A stretch of DNA of 64,000 bases from Arctopsyche grandis (Eukaryota; Arthropoda; Insecta; Trichoptera; Hydropsychidae). Where the stretch lies: the NCBI RefSeq assembly GCF_051622035.1, contig NC_135361.1:30805205-30869204 (forward strand). The letters run 5' to 3'. The notes beneath the pieces were generated by a model, which saw nothing but the letters and a program-made list of their open reading frames with translations, had not been told where the DNA came from and did no database searches. Numbering within the stretch: position 1 is the first letter of the stretch; every line of letters begins with the position of its first letter. This document shows, in pieces, positions 4,788 through 60,250 of this stretch. The translations under genes and the position numbers were made by a program.

Positions 4788-5692
4788 TCATATGCAGGCG
4801 GTTTTTCTTTCAGTATTGAGATTTGAAGGAGAAGAAAGTACCCGAAGTTCAGCTTCTACATTTTGACACTGTGAATTTGACACCTCTTCTTTTTTGATTT
4901 TGTCATAATAACTCAAAACGCAAAAGCAAACGTAAAGATTAAATCCTGAAATTAAGATGAATTGCAATATTAATCGTTCCGACACATTTCATTATCATTT
5001 GTAAAAACATATTTGTAAAAAATGTTGCATACCGATTGATAATAAGGCTAAGGACAAAAATATAGTGGCTTCTCCTGTGAAACTATTCGTTTTGATAATT
5101 CCAACGAAATTGTGCATAGTAAAGAGTATTGACGTCATAACGTTCAGTGTCGTTGTTATTAAAAATGGAATCAACATCAGCTTTACAGACTGAAATAAAA
5201 ATAAAAAACATTTTATAATTAATACATATGTAAATAAAATTAAAAAGGCTATATTTTAATGCTAATTTTGCACCCAGTTTGAAGATTTATATGTCCATAC
5301 CTTTACAACTCCATATATAAGGGCTGCACTCGCAATAATATAGGTAGCAGAATCGGACAACCCATACGCCATCATGGCGTTTGGAATATCTGAAATAAAT
5401 CAGTCCAGTGTATCATAAATGATAAATTTACACGGTAAAAGTAAGCCAAATATGATACGAATATATAGGTATAATAACCTGGGTTCGAATTAGTATAAAG
5501 TGTGATCAAATAAGTGAACTTTCCAATCTCGTATGTCTAAAACGAATTAGATAGAATACAATACTTTATTTTTATTTTATTTCAGCAGTATTACATTTGT
5601 TCCGAGAGAAAGCTTACCAAATAAAACCAGCCGAGGACTAGAATTGTGATTCTCAAGTCATATATGCCGCAAACTTTATTAGTCGGAGCCAT
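4788..5692 (-). CDS. T1, four-pass membrane protein of the array family
   Basis: Five coding exons on the minus strand: 5618-5692, 5479-5536, 5301-5389, 5033-5189 and 4788-4945. All borders are GT-AG, with phases 0, 1, 0, 1 as in the other nine copies. The product is 178 aa. Membrane segments lie at about residues 14-35, 55-73, 78-100 and 112-138. The exon 4 motif reads SVKLMLIPF instead of LIPW. The cytoplasmic tail after LSYYDKIKKEE is short and has no PPxY. The N-terminus (MAPTNKVCGIYDLR) has only one Cys where relatives have a Cys cluster, so T1 is a diverged member. By layout the family resembles LAPTM4/DUF4728-type endolysosomal tetraspan proteins; the function is not shown by the sequence. 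Confidence 0.78.
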
Positions 5693-5924
5693 CTTGATTT
5701 GTCTGAAAAAATATTATTAAATTAATTAATTTAAAAAATATATTTATTGATAAATTTCACAAAAAATTTTGAAGTGTATTCAAAAAAATTCGGGTGTGAC
5801 CAACCCATGACTTTATCTATGTATTTGAGGAATATAAGAAGGTTACAAAACAAAATTCGATATTGAACTAATAACTATGATAGCGATTCAAATTGAGCAC
5901 AAATGTATGGAAACTTGCACAAGA

Positions 5925-6925
5925 CAAAAGTTCTACTTCCGGTCATCGGATTTTGTTCAAATTTTTTTTATTATTTAAAATCAGTATAATTATTATACGC
6001 ATTAAATATTAAGAGGATAAAAATGATTTAAAAGGTCAAAATAAAATAATGAAATATTGTTTTAAAAAAAAATACTACTTCCGGTTTACCAATTCTGACC
6101 AAAATGTTAGCAACTCTAAGTTAGTACATAAAGAATACAAATATAAATTTTCAGCTTAATACGTTTATGGGTGTGGACAGGATCCAGGCGACAACATTTT
6201 TGACCTTTCTAAGAGGAGAAAATTCCGGTTTATTAAATTTGGTGATTTTTTTTTATTTTCATTACATTAATACAAGAATTATATTTGAATTTTTTCGTGA
6301 AGATCACACATGTTTAAGTGGTCGAAAAAAATAGTGGAAGAAAAATCGAACAAGAGTAAACTGCCACTTCCGGTTGAGGGATGCTTACCAAATTTTATCC
6401 ATAACTTGCTATTACGCTTAAACTTCTTGATATGAAACTTCAGTTCAATAAACCAAAAGGTTTCTGAGAAAAACATAAAAAACCTCGATTCTCTAGAGTA
6501 AAACTGCTACTTCCGGTTCAGATAAAAATATTTAAAAAATATAAGGTTATCAATATTATTATTTCTATTACATGTAAAAAAAATAATACGATTTAGTTGG
6601 TGGTTTGGGAGATAATTGGATTCAAAAACTTAAAAAAAAAGAGGACACCTATAAGGGGAGGTACCATTTCCGGTCATCTTAAAAATTTGAAAAAAATTAA
6701 CATCATGTCGATAAAAATTTCAGTATTTGATACTAAGTTTCAGTTTGATAAGACTAACGGTGTTCAAAAAATCCCCAAAATACACAGACACACACACATT
6801 TTTTCTAGATCATCAAAACGTGATCAGTAATCGATTCCGAGTTCGAATCAGTCAAAATCTCGAGTTCGAATTTTCGCATGATCACAAAACTTCATGTATT
6901 GTTACTACGTACATAGATAAAGTAA
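5925..6925 (+). repeat. family B repeat with internal ~146-bp periodicity, copy 1
   Basis: ACTTCCGGT-type boxes recur near 5937, 6073, 6226, 6366, 6511 and 6668, a spacing of roughly 136-157 bp. Several units also share a TTTCAGTTTGATA-like word at a similar place. The whole block is found again, inverted, at 43312-44190, with fragments near 4380, 34360 and 60450. No transposase-like frame was seen. Confidence 0.7.
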
Positions 6926-7080
6926 AAAGCATATCAGATACATATTTTATAATAATAAATGCAATCATTTCTTATCGATTTAAAATAACACGATAAATAT
7001 GTATGTACATATATGTACAAGAGATTTATAATACATGCATAAATATTTATGTACATAAATGAAAGTGAAACTTTTTTCAT

Positions 7081-8315: not shown

Positions 8316-11300
8316 TCAAGTATAGTTAATTATGCTGTATTCTGGAGGTCTTGCTTGAGTCTTAGTGAGAATTTGAAGTTCGTCTTCGACAATTTGATAT
8401 TGGAAATTCGACATTAATTCTTCTTCTTTGACCTTGTGATAAAATCCATAGACCCAAAGCCACATATAGAAACTAATTCCTGTTGAGAAAATTGTTTAAT
8501 GAAATTTATTTTCAATAAAACTTATTATATATGTATATAAATATAAACTAAATTTTTCACATACCAAGAAGCAGAAGAGAAAAGAATACGTGCCACAATT
8601 TTGGTATTTCAAAATTGAAAAAGAATTCAACGAAATTATACATAGCGTATATCAAAGATATTAAGAAACCAAGTGCCATTGTAAGGAGCCAAGGAATCAA
8701 CATCATTCTTACGGACTGAAATACGTACAAATAAAATAACATTATCATAAAAACACAAAAAGCAATTTACAATTTAATTTTTTAATTTTTATTCATCCCA
8801 CTGTTTCTAATTGAAAATTTTATATATTACTTATAATCATACATAGAACTGAAAATAATCTCATACAGATAGCAAATAAAAAAGCAAAAAATAATTGTGT
8901 GGTCACGAGTTCAATCCTTGAATGTGCTGCTCGTCAGACCTTGGATATGTGACTATATATTAATTGAACGGTTCCAACAAAATGGAAACCCTGTTCTATC
9001 TGTATCTCAAAATTCTGAGATACAGATAGAACAGTATTTCAAACCTGTATCTCAAAATTCGGCGATTTAAAAAAAATCAAAATAGTTTGTTTAAAAAATG
9101 TATCCATAAATTCTATGGCATAAAACGGATAGATTCTATGGCCTTTTAAAAATATGTATTTACATATAATATACGAATGCGACAGCATGCTTGGTTCTCG
9201 TAAGTCTCGCGTTAATGGGATCGACTATACTAGATATGTATTTCAAAAAACATATAATATGTATTATACTTCAGTGTTGATAATTCCCAAAAATCATTGA
9301 ATGCACTCTAAAGAAAGTATAAACGTTTTATGTAAATTATAGTAAAAATATAAAACCTTATGAGCTGCATAGACGAGTACCACATTAATGAGAACACCCA
9401 CAATGGAAATTATTATAGATAAACTCATTTCAGCCGCTGTAATTGCTAAAAAAAAATTATCAATTATTAATAGGTCTATAAATTCAAATTATACACTTTA
9501 ATTGAAAAATTTAAAATTAAAAGCATACCATCAACTTCAGAAGGCGATTCATCTTCCTTTTTATCAAAGTCAAACATTGAGTAGGCATCGATTGCATAAA
9601 TAAACCATCCAGAATAAAACACCTTGAAAAAATCATTTAAATTTGAATTTGAAACAAAAAATTATTTAAGTATCATTGAAAGTGGCCTGGATGAATCGAT
9701 GTGCATAATTCTATAATTTATTAATTTTACACTAATATTGTTATTTTTCTTAATACGCTAAATACCTATAGAATTATACATATTTTCAAGTATATGTATT
9801 TTATAATTAAAACTACATAAGTTTAACTTCTTTGTGCAAAATCTAATACCAGGTTGACAAGCTGCGAGTAGCTTGGCCCAAGTAGCTTGGACGACTTAAT
9901 TAGGCCTTACTCGTAACGTGGCAATGCGTAATCCAACCGTTTTGATGTTATTCGTCCAAGCTACTTGATCCAAGCTACTCGCATCGTATCAACCCGGTAT
10001 ATGGAAGTAAGAATCGGACTAGGTTAGTAAGACAATTTTTAAAAAGACAAGATTTTCCATTTTAGCCCAATGGCGTAGACAAATACATACATATATAACT
10101 AGGGTTGATACAAAAACCGACTTTAAGGAAAACTGATATTTTCTCGGTAAAGATTTGATTAATGAGAGGAGAATTTATTTGAAATATATTATTTTTTTTA
10201 CTGTAGGCGAAAAGCAACAGCTGGACTACGCTACTATATGTATTATCACGACACATTCGGACAGGCTTTGACAGAGAAATGTTATAATAATAGAAGTGGC
10301 TTTAGACGTCATATTGTTATCAAGTGAGGAATGTCCACGGACAATTTCAAATAATTACAGCGACAGTCGTATTTGATGCTTGGTGCTCGACGTATGTCCG
10401 ATAAAAACTTCTCTGTTTGTTTATATTACTCGCAAGAAGTGCAAGTGCATCGTTAAAAATTGCATAATGCATCCAAAAACACACAATTAACAACATGGGA
10501 TACATTTTTATAAGTAAATTGATCATTTAAGTAACATATTCTTCTATTAACATCGTAGTTTGACAGTTTTTAAAGGTGTCATGGTGATCGCCCGCATTCT
10601 ACATAAAATTTCAGGGGTGGCACCAGAGAAATGAAAAAATTATTTTTAAATAAATGTAAAAACATTTCTCTTGGTGGCACCGAATATTCAATTATATTAA
10701 TAACCAATTATTTATGTTTAATTAATATAAACATCGTTCATTTTATATTATACATATTTTTGTTGAAACTATACATTACACGTTAATTTAAGAGTTCCCA
10801 AGGACAGACAAATACGAAAAAGTGGATAAAAATAATCCGCCAATTGAGAAAATAAACGGATTGGCTACCGATGCCCAACACCACCATATACTTAAATTGT
10901 AAATAAATCAATATCAAAATAAAACTTTTATTTCTGTAGTGAATATGTGATAACCCTGATTATATTCCGTGCGTTGTAGCGTATATTAATGCGTACTTAT
11001 GAAGACGGTTCGCTTATTATTTTGAAACAGGCAATTTATTTGTAAAGGCACTTCTATTATTATAACATTTCTCTGGGCTTTGACATGTCCAGACGTATAT
11101 CTACTTATCCAATATTTATTACGGTAATCAAAGTTTTGCTGATAATTATCAAAATATTTTTACATTTTTGCTTATTTATCTGTGAAAAATTTGACAACGC
11201 TTGAAACAAATTATTTATGACTAGTAATAGCCGTGTTCGTGTTAAGAGTTTACCCAGCTTTCAATTTTCCTGAATATTTTTGAAAAAAATCAAAGCACAG

Positions 11301-12182
11301 ACAGACTTTACAATATTTGATAGATTCCATATTAAATCCAATAAAAACAGTTAAAATTACAGGTCTTTTTTGTATTCATACTCCAACTTAAGAGGGCTGG
11401 ACAGCAGCGCCTTGTCCATACAAACGTACTATACTTCTCCCTACCTCAATTATGGCACTAGAGAAATTATTTTTAATATTCTATGGATATCCACCATTGG
11501 GGTGCATCTATCGTTTTATTTTTTTTGATTAATTATTTTTTATAGGAGCTAGGAGCCGCCAAACATCTATAAAATCGCCTCTTTTTTACACCAACGAAAA
11601 GAGTCTAGCGTGGTTATTTAACGATCGATTTTTAAAAAATTACGCCGATAGATGCACAGAAAATATCTTTCTCATACCGATGATGAAATTTTTTTAAAAA
11701 TTGGTCCAGTTTTGGAGGAGAAAATAGTAGAATACGAAACCTCGATTTTGTCAATTTAAAACACGTTTTATCTGGTCGAAGCGCAACTGTCGCATTCACT
11801 CAATATATATATTGATATTTATTGTCGCATTCACTCAATATATACATACACTCAATATATATATCGAAGAAAGGAACGGTAACAAAATTAAGGTTTCGGA
11901 TGTACAGCCCTCTTAAGGATAATCCTAATAATAATAATATAAATAATAACTTTTTATTCCAGACGATAGGGAGAATAGTTCTATCACCATCGTCCATATA
12001 TGTATGTAAATATAAAGATAATAGAAATGAATGATAAAATAAATAAAAATAATATAATTCCCCCGATTGGTCACTTCCATGATACGTACATATGTATAAA
12101 TGGACCTTTATAATCTTACCAAGCCAAGCCATCCGATGATCAAACTTCCATTTCGCAGCTCGGACTTCTTGATTAAAGTCAT
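8316..12182 (-). CDS. T2, four-pass membrane protein with PPxY tail
   Basis: Exons: 12120-12182, 9529-9622, 9357-9445, 8565-8715 and 8316-8479, all GT-AG with phases 0, 1, 0, 1. The product is 186 aa. Exon 1 reads [21 protein letters not shown], keeping GWLGL but lacking the Cys cluster. Loop 1 is acidic (DFDKKEDESPSEVD). Exon 4 opens with SVRMMLIPW. The tail carries PPEY at residues 177-180, overlapping YSII at 180-183, so it holds both a WW-domain (Nedd4-type ligase) ligand and a YxxPhi sorting signal. Intron 1 is about 2.5 kb and holds a P-like element, a TTAA MITE and a hairpin MITE. An overlapping minus-strand frame at 11800-12189 is a shadow of exon 1 in another frame. Confidence 0.8.
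8893..9075 (+). mobile_element. SINE-related fragment in T2 intron
   Basis: A GTTCAATCC B-box-like word is followed by a CTGCTCGTCAGACCTTGG stretch and GTGAC. This is the same order as in the SINE copies at 18154 and 52761, but diverged and incomplete. Confidence 0.45.
9847..9999. mobile_element. hairpin MITE (~153 bp)
   Basis: The two arms, beginning TACCAGGTTGACAAGCTGCG and ending CCCGGTA, are imperfect inverted repeats of about 45-50 bp around a short centre. Both arms repeat the word GTAGCTTGG or its complement. It sits in intron 1 of T2 between exon 2 and the P-like element. No coding capacity. Confidence 0.7.
10272..11075. mobile_element. P-element-like non-autonomous transposon, copy P1
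   Basis: The ends are inverted repeats starting CAGAGAAATGTTATAATAAT and are flanked by the perfect 8-bp duplication GGCTTTGA (10264-10271 and 11076-11083). Near the left end lies sequence matching the THAP-like start seen at 41478 and 14223 (M-G-K-C-I-x-K-x-C-T-M-H). THAP domains plus 8-bp duplications point to the P superfamily, although hAT elements also give 8 bp. No transposase body remains. It lies in intron 1 of T2. Confidence 0.8.
11392..11912. mobile_element. TTAA-flanked MITE, copy 1
   Basis: The left end GAGGGCTGGACAGCAGCG and the right end TGTACAGCCCTC are inverted and flanked by TTAA on both sides (11388-11391 and 11913-11916). The left half matches the element at 22740-23114. 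TTAA duplication suggests a piggyBac-type transposase. Because TTAA is palindromic, a TA duplication cannot be excluded. The right half contains unrelated AT-rich and ATATATAC-rich sequence. Confidence 0.65.
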
Positions 12183-14571: not shown

Positions 14572-14592
14572 TAACATTTCTCTGTATTTATC

Positions 14593-15372: not shown

Positions 15373-17581
15373 TTACATGTAAAGTTCATTGTTTTGAGGC
15401 GCTGAAGGTTGCACTTGAATTTCAGCTTCTGTATTTTGACTTCGGAGCTTCAAAGTATCTTCTTCTTTGAGCTGGATGTAAAAGCTCAAGACGCACAAAA
15501 AGAAATAGAATTCTAATACTGAAATTAAATATCAATAAAACATATACATATATACGAAAGTGTTATTTAAAAAATCTACTGTGTATTTTAAACTACGCAC
15601 TATAGAAGTGAAACTTACTTAGATACACACCAAATGAGACTGAGGTTAGGTGTGTGAGGTAATTATCAAAAAGCCGGAGGAAGAGAAGCTGAAACACTCC
15701 AGTTTCGTGTTTCAGCGTTGTAACGTTTTTTGTTACACATTCAACCGCAAAAAAACCAATTCACTCGACTGCGTAAAGAAGTTTCACTTCAAAAAAATAT
15801 TGTATTTACGTTGAATTTTATACATACCGCCGAAAGATAGACCGAAGATTAAAATCCACACTGCAAGTGTTACGTGAACATTTGCGTAAAAAAATTGGGA
15901 GCTGGTATACAAGATAATTACCAATGTAATTACAATGGACAATCCTTCTACTATTAACCAGGGTAGTAACCATATTTTTTTTGACTGAAATGTATAGAAA
16001 TATATTATATTTATATTTATTATAAAAATGTAAAATTTATAAATGTAAGAAATTATATTGAAAAAAAATTTACCTTGTGACTTCCATAAACAAGACTCAC
16101 ACTGATGAAAAAACTTACTACGAGAGAGATCAGAACAAAAATGTGTTGCGTCTTTGTCACTAAAATCAGTCATTTAATTTTATTGTCATTAATTAATATC
16201 AATCGGTATTTACTATTTATAACCCACTGATTACGAATGTCTCCTCTCAGAATTTATATGTTTTATCTAATAATATCAGGTAAACCTACCCAATATTATC
16301 GTAATGCAACTAATATACATTAACTGATTGTTGACATGTATATGTATATAATATAAATTTTATACATATATGTACATATGTAAATAAATTTTTACTATGG
16401 CAAATAGTGCGTCCCTTTATTATTGTTTTCCTTTCACCATTTTATTTAAAATCTCTAAAGAAGTTCACTTTTTGAAATTTTGGAAAAATGCCCAATTGGT
16501 TATGACTCAAAATTTTCAATAAATTTCAGTAACACAATCGTGATCACTAAGTTTTTGCCGTGGCATTTATTCATTGTTGTCCATTATGATAAATTAATTT
16601 CCTTATCTATCAATGTACATAGATTCATTAACTGCATTTACCTTTTGTTAGTATCTATGTTATGGTTAGAGATTTTGACAACAAAAATAGCTTTATCGTC
16701 TAATTTTTTACTAGTTAACATACATGATTTATCAAGATTTTTAAAATGAACTGTTTTCTATGACTATATTTCGTGCTTGTTACCATGGTTTCAATGGAGT
16801 TCCTCAAGAATCAATCCTAGGACCAAATATATTTCTTATATATTTATGTATGTATCTAAACCATTTCTACTAATACAATTAATTGATTAATTTCAATACA
16901 ATTAGCATAGTAATATTGTTCATATAAATACGCATGTACATACATATGTGTCCATGATTATGAGAAAGTCAATAAAATTTATTTTTTTAATCAGTTACTC
17001 ATATTACAATATAACCGATATTAAACAATAAATTTTTTTTCCCGAATTAGACCACTCTCACAATTATGGGCACATATATTCTCAAAGTAATCAAAAGATG
17101 ACTATAATCATATTTTTAAAATACTCCAGCAATATTAATCATATTTTATTTTTCTTTAAATAAAATGATAATTTTGCTGTTCAACTTTTGGATGAATTTT
17201 AATTGAAATATATTCTATCCCAATACATGTATACAAAGCTAATGCTATTTGTATTACTTATGTCAGTTAATGAATTTGAGATCTTTGATTTGATATGCAT
17301 ACTATGTATGTGACAAAAAATAATTTAAAGCGTACATTCATATTCCTCGGGTTTTTCGATGGTATACATTCTTGGGATGAATGCAATTATAGAATTTAAA
17401 AAATATCCAGCGGAGGAAATCTGAAAAAAGTATTTTTTAAATGCAAATACATTTGTCATATTGGTATTTTGATACGATTTAAAAAAAAACTGGCAAAATC
17501 ACTTACCACACCCAACCATCCTATGATTAGGCATCCAAGACGCAATTTAGCACAACAACAACACTTTTCCAAAGGAGGCAT
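15373..17581 (-). CDS. T3, four-pass membrane protein of the array family
   Basis: Exons: 17507-17581, 17336-17420, 16074-16159, 15828-15984 and 15373-15518, all GT-AG with phases 0, 1, 0, 1. The product is 182 aa. The N-terminus MPPLEKCCCCAKLRLG has the family Cys cluster, followed by IIGWLGV at the start of membrane segment 1. Exon 4 opens with SKKIWLLPW. After FYIQLKEED the tail reads QVQPSAPQNNELYM and ends without PPxY or a clear YxxPhi. The start codon is fixed by the conserved 75-nt exon 1 length and by an Inr-DPE pair 68 nt upstream. Likely an endomembrane protein; function unknown. Confidence 0.85.
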
Positions 17582-22325: not shown

Positions 22326-25300
22326 TCATACTTGTTCAGGTGATAACATTCCAACCATTGTTAGTGCACCAAGTGGCTGAACGTGTTGTGTTTGTACTCT
22401 AAGTCGCCTTTGCATACTTAAAAATTCCTCTTCTTTGATATTTTGATAAAAGCAAAAAATTATGAGCCACATCAACAATAGTAATCCTGAAATCATTTAT
22501 TATATTTCAATAATAAGTACACACCAAAGTGATACATATAAATCTTAAGTTATTCAACATACCCGTCTTCAAGAAAGTCAAACTATAATCCACAGCGTCA
22601 AAGTCATTCGCATATAACGGTATTTCATTGAAGAACAAAAGCAACAGCACTGTCATCAACCATGGAATCAATAGTAATCGTTTGGACTGAAATAAAATAA
22701 AAATAAACTTTCTACCATTAAAAATTGAACATACATTAAGAGGGCTGGACACCAGCGCCTTGTACATACAAACGTATTACACTTCTCCATTCCTCAATTA
22801 TGGCACTAGATACATTATTTTTTTTAATATGCTATGGATATCCACCATAGAAATGTTTTTATCTTTTTATTTTTTTGAGTAGTTATTTTTTATAGGAGAT
22901 AGGAACCACCAAACATCTATAAAATCGCTTCGTTTTTACGTCCACGAAAAGAGTCCAGCGTGCTAATTTAACGGTCGATTTAAAAAAAAATACGCACATA
23001 GTTGCACAGAAAATATCTTTCTCATACCGATGATGATTTTTTTTTTAATTGGTCCATTGAGGAAGGGAGAAGTCTAATACGTTTGTTTGGACAAGGCGCT
23101 GGTGTCCAGACCTCTTAATGGGAAAATCCAAGACAAATGCTTTTTTCATAAATTTGTCAAAAACGCTAATTTCGCTAAGTACGCAGAAACTCATTACTGA
23201 ATTCATTCCCACTCTTATTGTCCCATGGCCTACTCTTATTCTCCATATATATAAATGACATACCTATTCCAAAAAATCTGTTACATAGCCCTATATGCAG
23301 ATGATACCGCTTGCTTCCTAAATAGCAAAAAACCAAACACTATTCGTAAAAATCTTGAATTTGCAACTAAAACAATGACGGAACACTTCACTAATTAGAA
23401 AACTCAAATTAATCAAACCAAAACAGACGTGATATTCTCAAATGTTAGGAAGCAAAGGCCAAGTTCAGGTCTGAAAACCCCCTCTGGATAAAGTCTGAAA
23501 TGGCAATCAATAATAAAATATTTAGGATTAACGTTCGATAAAAGAATGAGACGGGTACCTTACATTGAGGCAGCGAAATGCAAGGCGATGTGGGGTATAT
23601 CCTCCATATACCCAATATTTAATCGCCACAGTTCTTTATCAACTCAAAACAAATTGGAATAATATCGCGCACTCATATTAGCATTATTAACCTATACTTC
23701 ACCTGTATGGAATAACGCCTCGAATACTAACCTTTCCAAGCACCAAATAATACAAAATAAGTCCCTAAATATAATTTATAACACACCCATATATACTAAC
23801 TTGAAAAAATTGCATGCCATAATTAATATTCCGTTACTTACAGACATTACTAACAAACTAACCAGTAGATTCTATGACAGAATCACTAATAACCATACTA
23901 ACACACTTATGAAGAGTCTCGATGATTACAACAAAATGTCTATACCATTCAGGTATAACACACAGATTACCTAAAAACAATCTGCTTTAAATCGCCGACT
24001 TTAGAGAGTCTTTAATTAATATTATGTATTAGATGTATTATGAGCATTTATAAGAATTGTAAATAGGTTTTTGAGCTCTTTTTCCTATTATGCTGTACAT
24101 TAACATTAGAATAATATAATACTATGATTACTAACAAAATTAAATTAAAATTATAAAATAGAAAACGATCAGTAGATCAGTAGTTATTAAAATAGATATA
24201 AGATGTATTGTGAACATAATTTAGTAATAATAAAAAACATTTAAAAATCAAAATCAAATTACTCAATTCATAAACTGTCATAAACTGAGCAAATTAGACA
24301 GTCTGTTTTTTTTTTTTTTTTTTTGAAACTTAACCAAATTAAATTTCACTACATAACCATAACGATGCTTATTTCGAAAACTTTGAAATTATTTGTTTAT
24401 TATTTTCACAAAATTTTAAACAAATAATTTCATAAAAACAGCTTAAATGCAAATATAATGCAGATTGATCGTCTCCTGTTAGAGTTCACCATTTTATCTA
24501 ACTAAATTGTTGTGACGGATTCAATAAAATTGGAATATTTCACAAATTCAGTTGAATTCTGAATTTTTAATTGTTCCAAGCATAATATGCTTGCGGTTTG
24601 TGATATATCATTCATCTCATCTTATCCCTCCCCCGTTACTTACAAATTTATATCATTAAATATTTTTTTTTAAAAGGATCCAATTATAAAATTTTCATTT
24701 ATAGATTAAGAATTAAAATATTAATAATAATAATGATAAAAATAATAATAATAGTAATGATAAAAATAATAATAATAATAATAATGATAAAAATAATAAT
24801 AATAATAAAATTAAATAAATTCTTCGAAAATTTAAGTTCGTTGATTGTTAAATATACCTATACCTACATTGTAGAAAGTATTTAGTACATATTTTCATAC
24901 ATACATACATATGTACAAGATTGGCCATAGGTGTCGCTTTGTGGCAACCTGTCATGGCACCTATGATAAAAATAAAATATAAAAATATATTTAAAAAAAA
25001 TATTGTAACAAATTAATTTTAATTTAAACATTGAACTATGTGATACGATTCGTCGGATTATTCAGTTACATTTTGACATTAATTTACCAAACAACGAAAA
25101 GTGTTACAATCGTTGTAGTGAGTTTTTATTATATTAATTACTGGCGCTAAATATAATACTGATATCAGGAAGGTGGTAAGTTAGGTTAGATTTAAAACTT
25201 ATATCAATTATTAATATTTTTCGACCATTGTGGGGCATTAGGGACTCCTGTAATTCCACAATGGTTCAAACTTAAATAAATAAAAAATATATCATTACAT

Positions 25301-28831: not shown

Positions 28832-30303
28832 TTAAAAGTCATATTTCTGAGCTTCCTCGTATGTAGGTGGTGGAGTTTCAAAAGATTCAGAAGCTCTTAT
28901 ATGAAGTGCAGCTTCTGCATTTTGACTTTGCAAACCCAGAGCTTCGTCTTCTTTGATCTTTTGATAAAAACTGAAGACAAACAGCCACGTAAATACGAAA
29001 ATTCCTAAAATTATAAATGAGAATCATATAAGCTAGTAACTTAGAATTTTATATTGTTAATTGATTTGTATTCGACGTGTAATATTATACCTTCAATCAA
29101 TAATCCAACGAGCAAAGTGCATACAGATGTTATTAGCATACCGTGCAAAAAAATGATTAAACAATGAAACATCACATATATGCCAAGATAAAACATACTC
29201 AACACCACTGTCACTAGCCATGGAATCAATAATAATTTTACAGACTGAAATTCAAAGGGAAATAAGTCTAAAATTCCATGTTACGTATGTCAATGTGAAA
29301 ATTTAATTTAATTATACCTGAACAGCAGCATATATAGTCGTTGCATTGACGATAATACCCACAAAGGAAAATGTCATGGAATATATAAGATTTTTCCTAA
29401 TTTCTGAAATGAATCAATTTATAGATTTGAACCAGAGTTTAAATTGGTTTAATACATTGAACACGACATGAAGACTAAACCTGTTTTGCGAGAATTTGAA
29501 TAGATGTCTTTAATTATTAGGTCATTGTTTATAGAAAATAAACCGATGGAATAGATGAAATCTATAATGAAAAACACCTGAAATATATTAAAAAGAATTG
29601 AAATATTATAATAAAACTAAATTTATATTTGAATTAAATGAATATCAGTTTTCAGATTGCATATATTGATACTTCGAGTAAGGGAGTCGAGTCTAGTTGT
29701 CATACTTTTTAGTTCACAATTTTTCTATATTTTTCTATTAATAATAATCATAGTTTCTTTTTAAAAATTGTAAGTTTAGATCATTATCTATCTACGTAAA
29801 TAAATTTAATATGAATCAAATGAGTATAAACATTCAAATCAATCATTTAAAAAATATATATTTAATGTTGTATAGCAACGGAGTTATTTACAATTTGACA
29901 ACCAGATCTGGTAATAAATAAAGTAAAAATCATCAATTTTGTAGAATTTAAGAATTGAAAGGCATAAATAGAGGGTTGGATAATATATTTAATAAGATAT
30001 TTAAGTCAATATAATAAAAAAAATATATGAAATAAATTTTAGACAGTTAAGATTGTCTGAAGACGACGTTTAGGTTGTTACGATTTCTTTCAGTATACGT
30101 AGACAAATTGTTTTGATTATTTACTACATATATAAATACGTATGAAATATATTATAATTGACCAAACATATGTGTATGCAGATATTAATCCAAAAACTCA
30201 TTTTAATATTAGTATTAGTGTATGTACTCACCATTCCTAGCCAAGCTATGGTTAAAGTCCCGGAACGAAGCCCAAAACACAGACATTTCTTAAAAATAGG
30301 CAT
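28832..30303 (-). CDS. T5, four-pass membrane protein with PPTY tail
   Basis: Exons: 30232-30303, 29481-29577, 29318-29403, 29091-29244 and 28832-29004, all GT-AG with phases 0, 1, 0, 1. The product is 193 aa. N-terminus MPIFKKCLCFGLRSGTLTIA gives the family motif; membrane segment 1 follows (WLGM...). Exon 4 opens with SVKLLLIPW. After FSFYQKIKEDE the tail runs to ETPPPTYEEAQKYDF, with PPTY at residues 182-185. This is a consensus ligand for WW domains of Nedd4-type ubiquitin ligases, as in LAPTM proteins. A TTTATT (AATAAA on the coding strand) lies just after the stop. Intron sizes are compact, and the gene appears intact. A PY-dependent endolysosomal sorting role is inferred. Confidence 0.87.
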
Positions 30304-33217: not shown

Positions 33218-33299
<82 letters not shown>

Positions 33300-33500
33300 T
33301 ATTGAAAATATATAAAAAATTACTCACAAGACTCACGTATATAATATAATTATTTATACAAAAGTTCGTTATATTTACGTCTATTTATGTACATATGTAT
33401 TTAAAACTAAAAATTATATTGTATTTACTAATCCCAATCCTCCGATGAAACGATTTACGGTGCGTAAGTTAAAACAAAAACACTTTTTAATGAGAGGCAT
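32026..33500 (-). CDS. T6, four-pass membrane protein with shortened tail
   Basis: Exons: 33429-33500, 32673-32727, 32507-32601, 32277-32409 and 32026-32126, GT-AG with phases 0, 1, 0, 1. The product is 151 aa. N-terminus MPLIKKCFCFNLRTVNRFIG keeps the Cys and LRT features. Exon 4 opens with AKKILILPW. After FFQQIKEEEEEGEV the protein ends early. The following in-frame sequence still resembles the T7 tail, so the stop is probably a recent change. If so, T6 has lost any sorting motif. Intron 1 contains a solo-LTR fossil and a long (TA)n run. Either a working short paralog or an early pseudogene. Confidence 0.7.
32929..33190 (+). mobile_element. solo-LTR fossil in T6 intron 1
   Basis: This is a 262-bp unit beginning TGTAACATGG and ending CACTACCACA, flanked by ATAT on both sides (32925-32928 and 33191-33194). 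It contains a TATAAATAG box near 33110 and AATAAA near 33167, as expected for the promoter and polyadenylation parts of an LTR. It is antisense to T6. No internal region is present, so it is a solo LTR. The family is not recognised. Confidence 0.7.
33220..33292. repeat. (AT)n microsatellite
   Basis: About 36 uninterrupted AT dinucleotides in intron 1 of T6, directly next to the solo LTR. Confidence 0.95.
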
Positions 33501-35286: not shown

Positions 35287-35449
35287 TTTTAAGTCTCTGA
35301 ATCTAATAACGTAAGAATTATTTTTATACAAGTTTTATGATCATAACTCCAATATCCGATAACAACGTATAATAAAATTTGACAACGGCATGAAATACGT
35401 CTAATACGTGTAAATGTAGTCTTTTATCTATTTTTTTTTGTAAGTACAT

Positions 35450-37659: not shown

Positions 37660-40600
37660 TTATACTTGATCGTTCGTTTTTACAACATCGCTATAGTTAG
37701 GCAATGAATCACCAACTTCGGACGATGAAGAAGGAAGTGTTTGCAGTGGAATTCCAGCGTTTTGAAGCTGCAAATTCGACCTTTCCTTTATTCTGATCTG
37801 CTGGTATAAACTTAAAACCAACAGCCACGAAAAAATAAGCACCACTGAAATAAAATCGAAGAAAATAAAAATTTTAAAAATAAAAATAACAATATTTTTA
37901 AGTATGTATTTAAGAAAAAAAACTGACATGTTAACATACCAACAGCAATAGAAGTTATTACCAATAGTAAATGTATAAAGAAAAACTCCCTCATGTCCTT
38001 GGGCAAATATATTTCGTACCATAAGCACAATTGTGTTGGAATTAGATACAGCAATGTTAAAAACACAGTCAGCAACCATGGAATTGTCATCAGTTTTGAT
38101 GTCTGAAACAATTAAAATGAGCTTTTTCATATATAAAGGTATAATAATCCATAATAATAATTAAAAATAAACCTTGACAGCTGCATAGATCAATGATGCA
38201 CTCGTGATACTACCAATTACTGAAATACACATATGAACACCCCATCGGAAAGACATCCCTAAAATAAACCATTAGATTATTTTTTTGTTTTATGCCTGTT
38301 ATTATGTTTGAAATTTTAAACAAGCAATTTATTTATTTATGTAAGTGATTGGTTGTGTGATAATAAATTAAAGCTAAATGTGAATAAACAAAATTAATTT
38401 GGTTGAATAGTAAAAATGTATTCAATGGGATTGATGATACAATTATTGAAATAGTTGATAATATCTAGGAATTCACATAGACTCGAGACTGAATTTTAAG
38501 ATATGTACATGCTGAATATATAATTAAAAACAATATGGCAAAGTATGAAAACGATCGGATAAGAGATAAAAATGACCACTGAATTTTAAGATATGTACAT
38601 GCTGAATATATAATTTAAAAAAATGGATAGAAAAGTTAAAAAATATTTTAAGTAGAAAAAGTAAAGTTTTAGTCTATAATACAATTGTCTTGAAGCACGT
38701 GGTTTATTGTGCCACTGTGCTTAACATGTTTAATGGCCAAGATTTAGGAATAATTCATAATTGAAAATATAAGTAAAATTGTCATATTTGTGTTATTAAA
38801 AAAAAAGTTTTTTAAAAACATACCTCTTCTATAATTAGTATATAAAATAATTATTTTGAATAAAAACAACAATTTTATTTTACTACCGCCATCTATGTTT
38901 AAAACTAATAAACAAACGATGGATAAACGTCAACGACTATCTCGCCGGGCAGATATCAAACGCGTCTTACACGATATTTTTGCACCATCGTAATGGCAGA
39001 GGATCCATTACCTTATATTGATGACCAAAATGAGCAATATGGCAAAGTATGAAAACGATCGGATAAGAGGCAAACTTTTTCTTGAATTGTAATCGTAAAG
39101 GAGGTATGTAAAAATACAAAAATTACAAAATAAAGCTATGAGAGGTATTTTGAATGTTGGTAGATTGAAAAGTATAAGAAGTATGTTAGATGAATTGGGA
39201 TGGATGATCAATATAATTGGCTTTTGTTTATAAGTTAGATCATAAGTTATTACCTATGTATTTTAAGGATTATACAATAATAAATAGTGATATCCATAGT
39301 TATTATACTAGAAATAAGAACAATTTAGTTGTAGGTAGAGTAAGGAAAAAGAAAACAGCTGGTGGTGTCTTTCACAGGGTGTGCTCATGTACAATGCCCT
39401 TCCTAGTATGTCAGGTCTTCTAAGACCGTGGATGCATTCTTGCGAGGTGCAAGAGACACCTCTCTGAGAGACAGTGCATATAAATATAGTTTATATAAAA
39501 TTTTAGAGTTAAGTAATTAAAAATGCATGTGATTAAAAAAAGAAAGTTTTATTAAATTAGTGAAATAGCTAAACTTATATAAATAAATATACTATTCATG
39601 ATACGAATCACACTCACCTTTTTTATATGAAAATCCGAAACATATGAAAAACACCTGAAATCATAAGAAACTTTTTACATCATGTGTGGGTTAAATGTGA
39701 AAAATTCATGGTTGGTAATGTATGGTACAAATGTAGCCCATTCCCAAGACTACAAAGAGCGCATTTCTGTGGTAGTCCCCTCTCCAAACATTATTTGTAT
39801 TTTAGGTTATACCAATTTGTGAGAGATAACCACGAGATTGTTAAATACATAGTATTCTATGGCCCGGGCCATACCGGGCGATTTTGGTCGGCAGATTAGT
39901 TGCACGACTGGTCCAAATGTATGCAGTTAGATGGAGCGTGCCTCACCCGGCAACTTATTGGTCCTGGAACGTGTGCAATTAAATAAAATATTTATAATAT
40001 AATACCGATTCTTAAGTAAGTATAAAATACTGACTGTTAAAATATCGATCAAAATGTATAAAAATAAGTCATGTGAAAAGTATGCAAGTACTCATATTTA
40101 CATTGAAATATATAAATCAAACTAAATTTAATAACCTTATTCAACTGTCGCTGTGACAGTTGGATATAATATAAAACGCTGCTGATAACGTGTTTATCGG
40201 CAAATAATTCGGCGAATAATTGAATTCGGCAATGGCCTTGTTTCTACATATAATAACTACGATTTATTTTACATATAAAAGCATTTAAAAATAACACAAA
40301 TTAAAAAAATAATTGTAATTATACAAAAATCCTTATAAATATGAAAACAAAATAGGATATAGGATGTGAATAAATTGAGATTTAACTGATTTATCTAATA
40401 GATATTTCATTTATTAATCTATAATAGGATAATTTGTGAATACATCACGACACGTTTCATTGAATTTTGGATCAATTTTGTAAAGTAAAAAGTAACGTTT
40501 TTATACGCACAAATAATTCCGTGAGCGTTTTTTCTTTCAGTATTCTTTGGTACATACTATATTTATTTATTTATTTATTTTATTTATTTTATTAATTGAA

Positions 40601-41541
40601 AAATCAACAGACAGGATGTACATAGATATGTATAAAAAAACAAATAGTAAATAAATAATATATTTTATTTTTTTATTTTATTTCATACCAGGAAGGCATT
40701 ACAGGTAAACCCCAATGCGCCTTCCTGGCCAAATTACAAACAATACAGCATTTTTTATTATATAAGTCACTAAATTACGAGACACTGACTTAAACTCGAC
40801 AATTAACGAGACATCTATGAATTTTACATACATTTTTATTGTAATATTTACATTAATCATACTCAAATAGTGGTGACATAGTGGGTAGGAAGGATTTTTT
40901 TAGCCAATTTTTAATCGGGAATCGTTTCAACAATGAAATCAGAGAAAATTGTAACATCCTATATAACATCCTATATAACATCCTAAATTGTAACATCCTA
41001 TATGTAACATCCTATATGTAAATAACTATATGACGCGTATGAATGCGTGAACGCGCATGCGCAAATGGAATATGAATGCGTCCATATAGAATGTACCAAA
41101 AAATACTCCCCGTACTTGCAGGTTGCCTGCTGCTTCCGCTACGTGCCGACTAGATACAAACATGCCTTAATCTGTGAGTATAATGTCTATGAGCGTTTTG
41201 TCGCGTGAACTTTATGTCGTGCGCGCTGTGTCGATGAGCGTTAGGTCCGTGAGCGTTTTATCGTGACACCGTTTGAAATATAATGGTCAGCATACATGGT
41301 ATAACTTTCAAGGTGAAAACGTTTAAAATGTATGTACACGTGTAGGTACAGACAAATGTAATAATAATATAAGTGGCTTTATTACCTTTAGTGACTTAAT
41401 TAGTTTCCGCCACAGTCGTATGTGGTGTTTAGTGTTTGACGTGTGTCTGATAAACATTTGTTCATATTACTCGCAAGATGGGGAAGTGCATCATTAAAAG
41501 TTGCACAATGCACACCAAAGATGACGGAATGCAAACTAATC

Positions 41542-41631
<90 letters not shown>

Positions 41632-42980
41632 TTACATATATACCAAGAAGGCCTTACAGGTAACCCCAATGCACCTTTCTGGCCAATTACAAACATTACA
41701 GCATTTTTTTATTATACAAGTCGCTGAATTACGAGACACTGAATAACTCGCAAATTAACGAGACATCTATGAATTGTACATAAATTTTATTGTACATTAA
41801 TCAATCTCAAATAGTGATGACATAGTATGTAGGTAGGAAGGATATTTAGCCAATTTTACCGGAAACCGTTTCAACAATGAAATCAGAGAAAATTGGCAAA
41901 CTCTGATAGGAAACGATTGACCTGGAGTCACAAATATTGAGGTCTGACCAGCAGCACTACAGATTAACTCTGAAAATTCTTTTCAATCGACGTCAGCTCA
42001 TGGGATCGAACCCGGCGCCTCTCGATGCTAAGCATAAGCTTAACGACCGAGCTATGCTGCTGGCTATATATTATAATATTGCTATTCTATCTTTCTGTGA
42101 TAACGCTCGCCGTACTATAATAGTCGTTTCGACATACATATGTATGTCACAGCTAAGCCACTGCCAAAACGTATATACGGATACAATAACAAAAGAAAAA
42201 AACTTCTGTATATATACTATTTGCTACCAATGTTTCCTCTTGGCAGAGAATTTACCGCCATCTATTGAAAATTTATTTACTTAATTAATTTTTCTATTGG
42301 TGTTTTATATTGTTTACATGTATGTACATAGGTGGGTAGTTTTCAACTTTTATTCATATTAAACAATTAAATATAAATATTAAATTAAATATATTTAAAA
42401 GGTATTTGAAAAAAATTTGACCGCGTGCGGATCGAACACAGAATCGACACATTTATTTTTATTATTTTTATTTAATAACTTAATATGCCAACACCCATGC
42501 GATGATATTTCATCGGGTACAACACTAGTCAAGTATGGCGACGGCCATACCGAAATCTTACAACACTATGACGCCTAAAGCCATTTTTACTATTTTTACA
42601 TTTCTCTGTTTACATAGGTACCATATTCGCATACACTTCCAATATACATAAATAGACATTATATTATACAAAAAAAATATTTTAATACGATTACATATAA
42701 CATTTTTCACGCTATTAAATAATTCAGATTGTGTACGAGGTGCATAGCAAAAATCTTCGACGAGTATTGATCGAGAGCCATATTTAGCCTGTTGACTGTT
42801 ATGCATGGAACGAATTAAATTAAATTGACATATGCGCACTTATTGGTCAGCTAAAGTGTTCTCAGAGGCTTAGCTTCATTACGCAAAACTACATTGGAAT
42901 ACACTCACCAATCCCAGCCATCCGATGATAAGGTTTCCAGTGCGTAGACTGAAACAGCAACACTTATCAAAGATGGGCAT
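37660..42980 (-). CDS. T7, four-pass membrane protein with minimal loop 1
   Basis: Exons: 42909-42980, 39618-39654, 38173-38258, 37940-38102 and 37660-37844, GT-AG with phases 0, 1, 0, 1. The product is 180 aa. Exon 1 is textbook for the family: [20 protein letters not shown] then WLGL. Exon 2 is only 37 nt ([12 protein letters not shown]), so loop 1 is nearly absent. Exon 4 opens with TSKLMTIPW. The tail after [12 protein letters not shown] is long and includes LPNYSDVV, with YSDV (170-173) a YxxPhi sorting motif. No PPxY. Introns 1 (3.3 kb) and 2 (1.4 kb) contain a P-like element, a SINE and a LINE fragment. Confidence 0.83.
38370..39470 (+). mobile_element. LINE 3' end (CR1/I-like RT tail), broken by repeats
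   Basis: Plus-strand frames give in order [78 protein letters not shown] and [14 protein letters not shown], then a ...YNALP... stretch. This is the order of the C-terminal part of LINE reverse transcriptases. Pieces of family A lie inside at about 38530-38580 and 38940-39110. Frameshifts and stops are many. It lies in intron 2 of T7. Confidence 0.75.
40684..40951 (-). mobile_element. SINE, head-truncated copy
   Basis: It carries the 3' body of the local SINE (GTTTCAACAATGAAATCAG on the plus strand) and the ACCAGGAAGGC hairpin end, but stops before the tRNA-like head. The short repeat TTGAAAAATCAACAGACA precedes it at about 40595, as at 45535. Confidence 0.75.
40952..41025. repeat. ACATCCTATAT short tandem array
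   Basis: About five imperfect copies of TAACATCCTATAT, directly at the truncated end of the SINE. Confidence 0.85.
41544..41618. repeat. (TA)n microsatellite at a SINE 3' end
   Basis: More than 35 TA units adjoining the 3' end of the SINE at 41640. Frames across it encode only YIYIYI repeats and are not genes. Confidence 0.95.
41640..42064 (-). mobile_element. tRNA-derived SINE, copy 2
   Basis: Minus-strand head GCCAGCAGCATAGCTCGG, B box GGTTCGATCCC, and the same body as 437-834. The 3' hairpin is ACCAAGAAGGC...CCTTTCTGG. Its 3' end touches the (TA)n run. It lies within the P3 element in intron 1 of T7. Confidence 0.85.
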
Positions 42981-54664: not shown

Positions 54665-56245
54665 ATAATAAGTAAATTTTATTATCGCAAAAAATTGTTA
54701 AATTTAACTTTTACATGTGTACATACATATACAATGAAATATTGACTTCGAAATTATACCAGGTAAGTGCCGGAGAGAAATCAATTCTATAACTTGAGAC
54801 GCCTAGGGTTAAATTATTTAATAATAAAAAAATTATAAATGCGATAATGTCACTTTGGTATCATTCCTTAGAATTAAAATACAGATTTTGATATAACAGA
54901 ACACTTAATTTATTGAGATCACGATATTCCAAGTCAATCAATATATAATATAATACATACAAATGTACATATGTATTACCAATAATAAGAACATAGATTG
55001 ATTCTGAAAAGTATCTAATGAAATCATTATCTAATTGGCACTATTCTTTTTGCAATGTTTTAATTGTAATTAGATTTCTGCATGCATCCCAGTAAATCCA
55101 AAGTATTCTGTACTTTAATAGTTGATAAGTTTAATTCAAAGCAAATATGTATTACATAATAAGCTATTGTCATCAAAAATTATTGGTATTCATAGTAATT
55201 CATACTAAATCTATGGTAAAATGATTTTTTCGAATTCACCACAATCCGGCTGTGGTGTTGAAGAAAGGCCTTTCAGTTCAGTATCAGCATTTTGACATTG
55301 AGACTTTGATACTTCGTCTTCTTTGATCATTTGATATAAACTAACCACACATAACCAGAAATACACGTACATCCCTGAAATAACAATTTGATAAATGGTT
55401 TGAAAACTTTTCATACATTATGATTTATTAACTGCATTTATAACATACCATCAAACACCATCATAAAGATTACAAACACAGTTTCAGATGTATAATATGA
55501 ATTAAGTATCCGTATACCATGATATTCATCATATAGGAATAATCCAATGAACCGTGTTGCCAAATGTACTGCTAATAATAAAATTTCTAATGCAATCAAT
55601 ATCAGCCATGGAATCAACATCAACTTTACAGACTAAAAGACAAAAAAATGGTTATTAAAAACATTAAATCATTTTAAAATGTTTACAATATCAATACTGC
55701 CATGTATAAAATGTTAATCATACTATACATATGTATTATACAAATTAAATTGAACCTTAAAAACTGCATAAAGTAGTACTACATGCAGAAAAACAGTCAG
55801 AGATATTAAATTCAATGTCCATATCTTTCCTAGAATTAATACATTACTATTATTCTTTCAGTTAAATTAAACTAGTTGGTAAAAATAAAGTTAAATAGTA
55901 CACTACCTGTTTCATTTGGAGCGAGTTCGAAAATACTGAGTGCCAACAAAAATGCTAATAGGCAAAATGCCTACGGACGTATAAGAACAAGAAATACAAT
56001 ATTAATTGCATATTTTAATATTGAAAATTAGTCATTAGTAAGTTGTTTACCAAACCCAGCCAACCAATGACTGTGACTCCGGTTTGTAATCCAATACAAC
56101 AACAGAATTTCTTGAAGAGTGCCATCTTCAATGTACTAAAATTAATGAAAAGAAATTATTGTATTGAGCATGGATTTGACCTGTAGATACTAATTGTCAA
56201 ACAAATATCAGCTTTCCGTTAATGTTTTGGTTAGTCATTATCAAA
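54665..56245. repeat. duplication block containing T9
   Basis: This block aligns almost end to end with 58683-60250 (containing T10). It includes the 3' flank (AATGAAATATTGACTTC, GGAGAGAAATCAATTCTATA), all exons and introns, and the 5' flank (GAGCATGGATTTGA). It is a direct segmental duplication of about 1.6 kb. Confidence 0.85.
55211..56125 (-). CDS. T9, four-pass membrane protein (recent duplicate of T10)
   Basis: Exons: 56051-56125, 55907-55970, 55756-55829, 55449-55632 and 55211-55374, GT-AG with phases 0, 1, 0, 1. The product is 186 aa. N-terminus MALFKKFCCCIGLQTG then VTVIGWLGL. Exon 4 opens SVKLMLIPW and is longer than in T1-T7 because the loop between segments 3 and 4 carries an extra LYDEYHGIRILNSYYTSE stretch. 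The tail after SLYQMIKEDEVSKSQCQN ends GEFEKIILP, with no PPxY. Introns are short, and no break is visible. Nearly identical in exon 5 to T10. Confidence 0.87.
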
Positions 56246-57026: not shown

Positions 57027-57383
57027 TATTTTTAATGACATTGTATGCTTATAAAATGATTTTTATTAACTAATTATCGACTTCCTTCATTATGTGTTCT
57101 GAAAAAGCAATCATGCAATTAATAAAAAATCTAATTTATAATTTTGAAAGAGACTTTTTATGTAACTATGTAAGGTTTGGGAGGGGGCATCGAAAACAAA
57201 TCAAAGTTGACTATTATTTTTTTTTCGATTCAAATAAATTTAATAAAAAAAAAAAAAAACTGTTTACTATTAGGTTACAAATACATGTTTACTTGCGATA
57301 TTGACCTTCTATACGAAGATGTCTGTTTATTAAAATTTTTTTTACTAAATATGACTAAAGTAAACTAGACAAAAACGGTAATT

Positions 57384-57565
57384 GGACTATTCGTCACATT
57401 GCGGTGGTCACAAAGACAATTTTTGCCATGAAAATCGCGAATACACAATATTAGGCACTCAAGTTCTCGTCAGTATGATAGTTATCGTTAGTACGATGGA
57501 TTTTTCGGTTGCCAAATGTTCCGTTATAGAGATTTTAGTGACTTTGTGACCAGTAATCACCGAAC
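57384..57565. repeat. dispersed repeat with GTCACAAAG ends, copy 2
   Basis: Inverse match of 13085-13330, including GATAGTTATCGTTAGTA and ATTTTAGTGACTTTGTGACC. The minus-strand frame 57459-57797 that overlaps it shows no domain. Confidence 0.5.
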
Positions 57566-58682
57566 CACAACAACAATATATAAGAAATGGATAATATTTT
57601 TTAAAGATCATTTCGCCGGCATTAATTTGTATAAAAATTCTGGTACACATACTATCAATTCCACATTCCAATGCAATTTGTGAAAGAATATTTAGCAATA
57701 TAACAAAATTATGCATTTCTTGAAATAGTGAATGTCCCGATCTGTGATTTTGGAAATCTGGCAAACCTGATTGCAATTGAATGGCACCGACATCCAAAAA
57801 TCACGTATACCTAATAGTAAGCTACAAAGTCAGTAAAAACATACAAAGGATAGCAACACAAGTGATTACGAAAATGTGTCACACTAAATACAAAACACGA
57901 CCACACATGTGATTTGCCACAAGGCGACTGATGTTCTCTGTTGTAAATACATATTTTTATGAGCTGATCAAACATGTTTCTGTTGTAAGATTAATCCAAA
58001 GGAGGGGATTTAAATATCTATAAAAATCACGTAAAATAATAAATTTGAACCACAATACAATCAATTTTCGCAATTCAAATAGAAAAAAATACCATACTTG
58101 TGTCCATTTGCATTACGGGCATTTTGATTGATCGGTGTTCTCCAACAAAACTGCAAAACCTTTTTATTAAGCTTCTTAATCGTTCTGAATTGAATCATCG
58201 ATTATGTAGTTTTGAATTAACAATGGCAGCTTGAACATGAGAGGATTGTGAATTCAGAGCTCGGATTGTGTAATTGTAGACAGAGTAAATTTTGGATAAT
58301 GGTAGGAGATATGTAAATTAAAATTTCAATATTGGTCAAACATTTGAATAAAACAAATAAAGAATTCGTTTATCTGCGAGGTCAATTTTTGTGTCATTTT
58401 TACGCATAATCTGCTATTATGATGGCAGATGGTAAACTTGAAATTTCCAAAACAAAAAAAAAATGTAATTTTAGGAGAAATGTATTCACTAAAATTTATG
58501 ACAATATGTTTTTAAAAATCCATGTGTTATGTAAGCAATTTTTATATTTAGAGGATATTTAAATTATATAAATGGATCACTTTCCACTAAATGACCAAAA
58601 AACCTTTAAATATTCTTTACTATACATACATACTTATATTTTTTAAAAATCACATTTGTATGTATGTACTTAGTTTTTATGA
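57566..58682. other. spacer between T9 and T10, no gene
   Basis: No exon of the family or other gene was recognised. Words near 57855-57965 (AAAACACGACCACACATGTG, CCACAAGGCGACTGATG) recur at 61200-61260, so a further unclassified repeat or duplicated flank is present. Confidence 0.45.
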
Positions 58683-60250
58683 ATAAGTAAATTTTATTAT
58701 TGCAAAAAACTAACAGTTATGTTTTACATACATATACATATATACAATGAAATATTGACTTCAAAATTGTACCGGGTAAGTGTCGGAGAGAAATCAATTC
58801 TATAACTTGGACACCTAGGGTTAAACTATTTAATAATAAAAAAATTATAAATGCGATGATGTCACTTTGGTATCATTCTCTAGAATTACAATAGAGATTT
58901 TTATATAACAGAATACTTGCTTTATTGAGATCACGATATTCCAAGTCAATCAATATATAATACATATGTACATATGTATTACCAATAATAAGAACATAGA
59001 TTAATTCTGAAAAGTATCTAATGAAATCATTATCTAATTGGCACTATTCTTTTTGCAAAGTTCTAATTGTATTTAGATTTCTGCATGCATCCCAGTAAAT
59101 CCAAAGTATTCTGTACTTTAATAGTTGATAAGTTTAATTCAAAGCAACTATGTATTACATAATAAGCTATTGTCATCAAAAATTATTGGTATTTATAGTA
59201 ATTCATATTAAATCTATGGTAAATTGTTTTTTTCGAATTCACCACAATCCGGCTGTGGTGTTGAAGAAAGGCCGTTCAGTTCAGTATCAGCATTTTGACA
59301 TTGAGACTTTGATACTTCGTCTTCTTTGATATTTTGATATAAACTAATCACACATAACCAGAAATACACGTACATCCCTGAAATAACAATTTGATAAATG
59401 GTTTGAAAACTTTTCATACGTTATGATTTATTAACTGCATTTATCAAATACCATCAAACACCATCATAAAGATTACAAACACAGTTTCAGATGTATAATC
59501 TGAATTAAGTATCCGTATACCATGATAATCTTCATATACGAATAATGCAATGAATCGTGTTACCAAATGTACTGCAAATAATAAAATCCCTAATATAATC
59601 AATACCATCCATGGAATCAACATCAACTTTACAGACTGAAACACAAAAAAAAAATGGTTATTAAAAATATACACTAAATCAGTTTAAAATGTTTACAATA
59701 TCAATACAATGTTAGTAATACTATACATAATGTATTATACAAAATATACTGAACCTTAAAAACTCCATAAAGTAGTACTATATGCACAAGAACAGTCACA
59801 GAGATAAAAGTCAGCATCCAAATCTTTCCTAAAATTAATAAATTATTATTTTTGCCTCAATATACATACACTTAACCTAAATAATTTGATAAAAATAAAA
59901 TTAAAAAACACACCATTTTTATCATGGGGGGCCAGTTCGAAAATCACAAGTGCCAACAAAAATGTTAATACGCAGAATGCCTATGGACGTATAATAACAA
60001 AAAATACAATATTAATTTTATATTTTAATTTATAAAATTAGTAATTTAATAAGTAGTTTACCAAACCCAGTACACCGATGACTATGCCTCCAGTTCGTAA
60101 TTTCATACAACAACAGAACTTCTCGAAGAGTGGCATCTTCAATTTACTAAAATTGGTGAAAATAAATTTTATTGAGCATGGATTTGATCTGTAGATACTA
60201 ATTGCCAAACAAACATCAACTTTCCAATATATTTTTTTGTTAGTCATTAC
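58683..60250. repeat. duplication block containing T10
   Basis: Direct copy of 54665-56245. The two blocks differ mainly by small indels and substitutions. Confidence 0.85.
59214..60136 (-). CDS. T10, four-pass membrane protein (recent duplicate of T9)
   Basis: Exons: 60062-60136, 59914-59980, 59755-59828, 59452-59635 and 59214-59377, GT-AG with phases 0, 1, 0, 1. The product is 187 aa. N-terminus MPLFEKFCCCMKLRTGGIVIG then VLGL. Exon 4 opens SVKLMLIPW with the long second loop as in T9. Exon 5 differs from that of T9 at only a few residues and ends GEFEKNNLP. Exons 1 and 2 differ more (for instance ELAPHDKN against ELAPNET), so change is concentrated in the N-terminus and loop 1. No break is visible. 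Confidence 0.87.

Follow-up and report, generated by a model that had tools for sequence, protein, structure and literature searches.

A large tandem array of diverged DUF4728-like membrane protein genes in Arctopsyche grandis and its tentative LAPTM-like sorting role

A stretch of 64,000 nucleotides from the caddisfly Arctopsyche grandis (here called the window; C7:30,805,205-30,869,204 in a genome assembly of 189 contigs totalling 475.7 Mb) was analysed. It contains nine related membrane protein genes, designated gA to gI and located at 4788..60136 entirely on the minus strand, and further copies were traced beyond its borders. These genes belong to a tandem array of approximately 230 kb, the assignment of which to DUF4728, a known but uncharacterised family, is supported by profile scores. 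The array almost certainly evolves by birth and death, a process in which repeated local duplication would make copies, single copies would decay and neighbouring copies would probably share sequence in part. The mechanism proposed for the encoded proteins, that of LAPTM-like sorting adaptors, is held tentatively and with somewhat less than even confidence. Birth and death of a DUF4728 array together with LAPTM-like adaptors is nevertheless the best explanation of the locus as a whole, and is given roughly an even chance.

Results

Gene models in the window

The gene models combine exon matches with open frames and splice sites. Eight of the window genes possess five modelled exons each, while for exon 2 of the ninth, gC, none of the candidates looked at was convincing. 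It can be observed that GT-AG is present at every modelled junction; the intron phases are 0, 1, 0, 1, as had been claimed in an earlier, sequence-only reading of this DNA (the original prediction). Exon profiles constructed from the nine genes matched their exons 1, 3, 4, and 5 with E values of 1e-8 to 9.4e-29; since the same genes had built the profiles, independent support is provided by the copies that these profiles find outside the window. Exon 2 is the least certain exon, being divergent and having a weak donor in several genes, and its profile listed seven of the eight modelled exons 2 at E < 0.1, the exception being that of gD. The G+C content of the window, measured in 4-kb steps, is 27-35%, and neither Rfam at gathering scores nor ARAGORN gave a match in the window. 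The nine genes are as follows, with DUF4728 scores relative to the Pfam cut-off of 26.7 bits.

gA, 59214..60136, minus strand: 187 residues; exons 60136-60062, 59980-59914, 59828-59755, 59635-59452, 59377-59214; DUF4728 19.2 bits, below cut-off
gB, 55211..56125, minus strand: 186 residues, 80% identical to gA; exons 56125-56051, 55970-55907, 55829-55756, 55632-55449, 55374-55211; DUF4728 11.3 bits, below cut-off
gC, 37660..42980, minus strand: exon 1 42980-42909, exon 3 38258-38173, exon 4 38102-37940, exon 5 37844-37660; DUF4728 25.5 bits with exon 2 left out, slightly under the cut-off
gD, 32026..33500, minus strand: 151 residues, short tail; exons 33500-33429, 32727-32673, 32601-32507, 32409-32277, 32126-32026; DUF4728 23.3 bits, below cut-off
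gE, 28832..30303, minus strand: 193 residues, PPPTY tail; exons 30303-30232, 29577-29481, 29403-29318, 29244-29091, 29004-28832; DUF4728 9.8 bits, below cut-off
gF, 22326..27333, minus strand: 175 residues; exons 27333-27262, 25624-25525, 25447-25377, 22686-22563, 22486-22326; DUF4728 13.4 bits, below cut-off
gG, 15373..17581, minus strand: 182 residues; exons 17581-17507, 17420-17336, 16159-16074, 15984-15828, 15518-15373; DUF4728 36.0 bits and DUF7027 29.1 bits, both over cut-off
gH, 8316..12182, minus strand: 186 residues, PPEY tail; exons 12182-12120, 9622-9529, 9445-9357, 8715-8565, 8479-8316; DUF4728 24.4 bits, below cut-off
gI, 4788..5692, minus strand: 178 residues; exons 5692-5618, 5536-5479, 5389-5301, 5189-5033, 4945-4788; DUF4728 30.1 bits, over cut-off

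Extent of the array

The exon profiles were run over the window and 90 kb on either side (244 kb; 10,767 fragments). The left flank gave no match below E 0.2, and the right flank yielded further copies. The array does not end at 60136, the limit given in the original prediction: the right edge of the window falls within a broken inverted copy, beyond which more copies follow. Measured from the stop of gI to the start of gR, the array occupies C7:30,809,992-31,040,172, its right end lying at about 235 kb on the window scale. Moreover, when gG, gA, gE, and gR were used as protein queries against the whole genome, 54 matches with E of at most 0.01 were obtained, all 54 of which are on C7 within 30.81-31.04 Mb; among the weaker matches on other contigs, those on C13 were examined. 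The expansion is thus real and larger than first seen.

Sixteen copies are without an obvious break, namely gA to gI, gJ, gN, gO, gP, gQ, gR, and gS. A complete five-exon frame with a single terminal stop is present in 13 of these, and three are incompletely modelled: gC (exon 2), gP (its stop lies beyond the sequence covered), and gS (exons 3-5 only). In addition, there are at least five broken copies. Both counts are lower bounds, the best candidates alone having been scored by the search.

gM: broken by a stop in exon 4
gL: broken, exon 5 frame disrupted, usable exon 1 donor not found
gK: broken, exon 1 only
Exon-1 relic, 34908..35418, minus strand: internally deleted copy, its exon 1 at 35286-35209 having an internal stop and resembling that of gD
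Inverted copy of the gA/gB unit, 63725..64000 and running on to about 64,770 on the window scale, plus strand: broken, 79.7% identical to gB over 938 bp

On one side the relic aligns with gD around exon 1 (83% over 289 bp), and on the other with what follows exon 5 in gA and gB (77-78% over 124-125 bp); it matches two gene ends with the middle missing and is therefore read as a copy with an internal deletion. Ten genes had been counted in the original prediction. That several five-exon genes lie in one orientation holds true, and the number is corrected to nine genes and the relic, the exon at 35286-35209 being probably, at a guess, the supposed tenth. An exon-3-like piece at 132 kb, similar by eye to exon 3 of gP, may be a sixth broken copy. 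Downstream of the stop of gD, the frame continues for 16 residues to a second stop (31978-32025, minus strand), hence its tail may have been shortened recently.

Family assignment

Pfam profiles were scanned against 14 array proteins, gP and gS being left out. DUF4728 exceeded the cut-off in seven, comprising gG and gI in the window and gJ, gN, gO, gQ, and gR outside it, and was listed below the cut-off in the other seven, with gE the lowest. The DUF4728-like identity first put forward from the letters alone is accordingly upheld by the profile check that had been called for. DUF7027 (PF22954) provides a further likeness, since it is over the cut-off in gG and gO; it is below the cut-off or unlisted in the remaining 12, and a search for it over the whole genome gave nothing over the cut-off. 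In the genome-wide search with DUF4728 five weak matches were observed, which include exon 4 of gS and of gP, and weak matches on C10, C3, and C8 were found in the DUF4728 and DUF7027 searches.

A dispersed gene at C13:13345583, which scores 30.6 bits with DUF4728, is informative for the exon layout. Read by eye, it has three introns of phases 1, 0, 1 at places corresponding to array introns 2-4, and compared with it the array genes carry one more intron, of phase 0, behind exon 1. At C13:27626300-27632000 a tandem pair of related genes displays another exon layout by eye, in which array exons 2 and 3 seem to have a single fused counterpart. In the available part of a tardigrade genome paper, DUF4728 is placed among the putative synapomorphic families of Panarthropoda (PMC5531438), and within the text portions returned by a full-text literature search its mention was confined to that paper, with none for PF15860. 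A literature search for a comparable expansion turned up nothing related, and a profile of the nine window proteins matched none of the solved structures with E of 1 or lower. To our knowledge, no function is known for DUF4728.

Protein layout and conservation

The intact genes encode membrane proteins of approximately 150-210 residues. Hydropathy and PPxY occurrence were assessed in 16 array proteins, 12 of which contain four hydrophobic segments. A PPxY motif is present in seven of the 16 tails (gE, gH, gN, gO, gP, gQ, and gS); when the final 45 residues were shuffled 2000 times, this count averaged 0.13 and reached 2 at most. This tail, together with the size and strong divergence of the tandem set, distinguishes the array from DUF4728 (PF15860) in general. 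The shared motifs named in the original prediction exist in the window genes in a looser or less general form. The N-terminal CCC-x-x-LRTG is relaxed, C..[LIVM][RK][TS]G being found in three of nine, LIPW in exon 4 in five (the rest have LLPW, ILPW, TIPW, or LIPF) and an exact KEEE tail in three, while PPxY is in frame only in gE and gH. In gI, PPAY lies out of frame at 4790-4801 (minus strand), as would be expected had the motif been lost through a small indel.

Pairwise identity was computed among the 13 five-exon genes. Mean identity is 0.49 for exon 1, 0.51 for the first 15 residues of exon 4 and 0.47 for the first 18 residues of exon 5, and falls to 0.20 in exon 2, 0.18 in the rest of exon 4 and 0.24 in exon 3, which is mostly TM2. 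The regions kept are a short N-terminus with Cys, the junction between TM2 and TM3 (SVKLMLIPWL) and the last part of TM4 with the adjoining KEEE stretch, while the two stretches presumed to face the lumen or the outside vary in both sequence and length. In LAPTM4A both termini are described as cytosolic, and specificity is determined by the second of its two short luminal loops (PMC6258472). By analogy, if the ends of the array proteins were likewise cytosolic, the kept parts outside the membrane would face the cytosol and the varying parts the lumen or the outside.

Evolution of the copies

A tree of 18 rows was obtained, in which five of the 15 inner branches are starred and seven open, the bootstrap has not settled and many end branches are long. 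It groups gA, gB, and gN (99/98), gP, gQ, gR, and gS (100/99), and gE and gF (90/90); the C13 gene joins gJ at 88/85, flagged as a possible long-branch join. The copies gM and gN are nearly identical. Between gA and gB, identity is 88% over 1276 bp and declines toward the 5' end, though unevenly (3' flank 0.973, 5' flank 0.609), so that the 3' part looks like sequence shared between copies and the pair is poorly suited to a selection test. The dN/dS ratio is 0.79 for gA-gB, 1.75 for gQ-gR and 0.7 for gP-gS (exons 3-4). From the few pairs available, it would seem that frames are kept while amino acids change freely.

Such changes also suggest an explanation other than sorting adaptors, in which the array would encode lineage-specific surface proteins whose exposed loops are under positive selection in recognition, reproduction or immunity, PPxY being a turnover signal that is freely lost. 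This is considered rather unlikely. It is favored by the contrast between the presumed loops (0.18-0.20 identical) and the presumed cytosolic parts (0.47-0.51), by the open frames, and by the pair gQ-gR, where nonsynonymous changes (67.7 in 399 sites) exceed synonymous ones (11.3 in 111; one-sided Fisher p 0.042), with 20.5 against 0.5 in exon 2 alone. Furthermore, gA and gB differ by 7 gaps in 339 intron bp and by one gap of 3 nt in 561 exon bp. However, gA-gB has no nonsynonymous excess (p 0.867), and mismatches are no more frequent in exons than in introns in either gA-gB (p 0.775) or gQ-gR (p 0.091). The change in gQ-gR is almost all on the gR branch (0.57 vs 0.012), and as the tail of gR is shortened, decay fits. 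The gap contrast is also weaker in gQ-gR, with 3 gaps in 197 intron bp and 2 in 513 exon bp, one of which is the shortened tail, and exon 5 of gP-gS has 2 gaps. The pairs are few, and the p values are uncorrected for several tests. Strong positive selection, for which the lowest p value comes from one pair with its change on the gR branch and the highest from another, was not accepted.

It could also be supposed that most copies are decaying and few are working, the array being largely a side effect of local duplication. The five or more broken copies that accompany the 16 others, the shortened tails of gD and gR, the PPAY out of frame in gI and dN/dS near 1 in recent pairs are all in line with this explanation. 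Nevertheless, it is judged unlikely, because 13 copies keep a complete five-exon frame despite the very long branches between most of them, and drift alone would not keep these frames.

Discussion

Relationship to LAPTM and other four-pass families

The array proteins resemble LAPTM4 and LAPTM5 (Mtp, PF03821) in their four-pass layout and, in some members, in a PY-type tail, and LAPTM identity was one of the possibilities raised originally. That the array genes belong to the LAPTM4 family itself is disfavored and very improbable: beyond the similar layout, Mtp was listed in four of the 14 scanned proteins (gA 16.2, gB 9.9, gG 21.5, and gI 20.9 bits), but in none of them did it reach the cut-off of 25.2 bits. 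Moreover, a locus on C5, with an Mtp score of 25.0 bits (25.5 with its neighbors) and frames holding LPDY and PPPSY, is by its sequence a LAPTM4-like gene separate from the array. By eye, its frame runs on where the array genes have the intron between exons 3 and 4. Membership of the array in LAPTM was rejected on these scores and on the separate C5 gene. Another four-pass family such as tetraspanins is so improbable that it can be set aside, since tetraspanin was listed in only three of 14 (gF 14.4 bits, above the DUF4728 score of that protein, gH 8.5 and gO 9.5), all far below its cut-off of 32.1 bits, and the introns match the places of those in the DUF4728 gene.

Proposed sorting role

The mechanism proposed for the array proteins is drawn from LAPTM4. 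According to the literature, LAPTM4 proteins use PY motifs to bind Nedd4, and when these motifs are missing LAPTM4b is missorted, more of it reaching the plasma membrane (PMC3214061; PMC5297682). By analogy, the PPxY tail of some array members would recruit a Nedd4-type ubiquitin ligase with WW domains, and the ligase would direct these members, along with their partners, to late endosomes or lysosomes. Members without PPxY would have lost this lysosomal address and would stay more at the surface. The sequence itself shows the array with its gene models, the DUF4728 matches, the hydrophobic segments, which tails have PPxY and which lack it, and the broken copies. Splicing, topology, ligase binding, localization and the choice of partners by the loops are all features that we infer, and the endolysosomal role is assigned by analogy with LAPTM.

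Several observations weigh against the assignment and the mechanism. Regarding the family, unrelated families have slightly better E-values than DUF4728 in gA, gE, and gF, all of them below cut-off, and with DUF4728 no match reached the cut-off in a six-frame search of the whole genome, which is explained by each exon being scored apart. As the array lies below the LAPTM cut-off, the parallel with LAPTM rests on layout, and this layout has exceptions: gE has five hydrophobic segments, gI has three, gC and gS have three but are incomplete, and the four segments of gD overlap, with none before residue 55. The PPxY motif is absent from nine of the 16 array proteins, from seven of the nine window genes and from two dispersed relatives; moreover, three of the seven bearers (gP, gQ, and gS) belong to a single clade, so that the seven cases are not independent. 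The poor conservation of exon 3 indicates that low identity is not confined to the loops. Finally, the dN/dS values would also fit relaxed constraint.

Taken further, the adaptor proposal would describe a modular sorting system, consisting of a constant cytosolic chassis and varying luminal loops that pick different cargo, with the presence or loss of PPxY splitting lysosomal from surface members. This extension is speculative and unlikely to hold. If it were true, repeated loss of one short motif would give duplicates a new address. The array offers natural variants with and without the candidate sorting motif, which are ready constructs with which to test the idea of LAPTM-like adaptors, and it allows the kept and the varying face of one protein to be compared.

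Neighboring frames

Inside the right part of the array, an uninterrupted frame of 1549 residues is located at 125397-130043 on the window scale (plus strand). It contains NB-ARC (37.0 bits; cut-off 23.5) and many ankyrin repeats, an NLR-like layout that is unusual for an animal gene, and a literature search on this NB-ARC/ankyrin frame turned up nothing related. A flank frame, L010:6689-9076 (minus strand), encodes a reverse transcriptase (RVT_1), and a number of further long frames in the flanks resemble one another by eye. Near gK and gL there are two similar frames, at 145016-145720 and 137166-137870 on the window scale (both minus strand), which suggests a duplicated segment. The first of these matches PLDc_2 (7.8e-15) and, among PDB structures, mitochondrial cardiolipin hydrolase (best 3.5e-32), and is presumably of the zucchini type.

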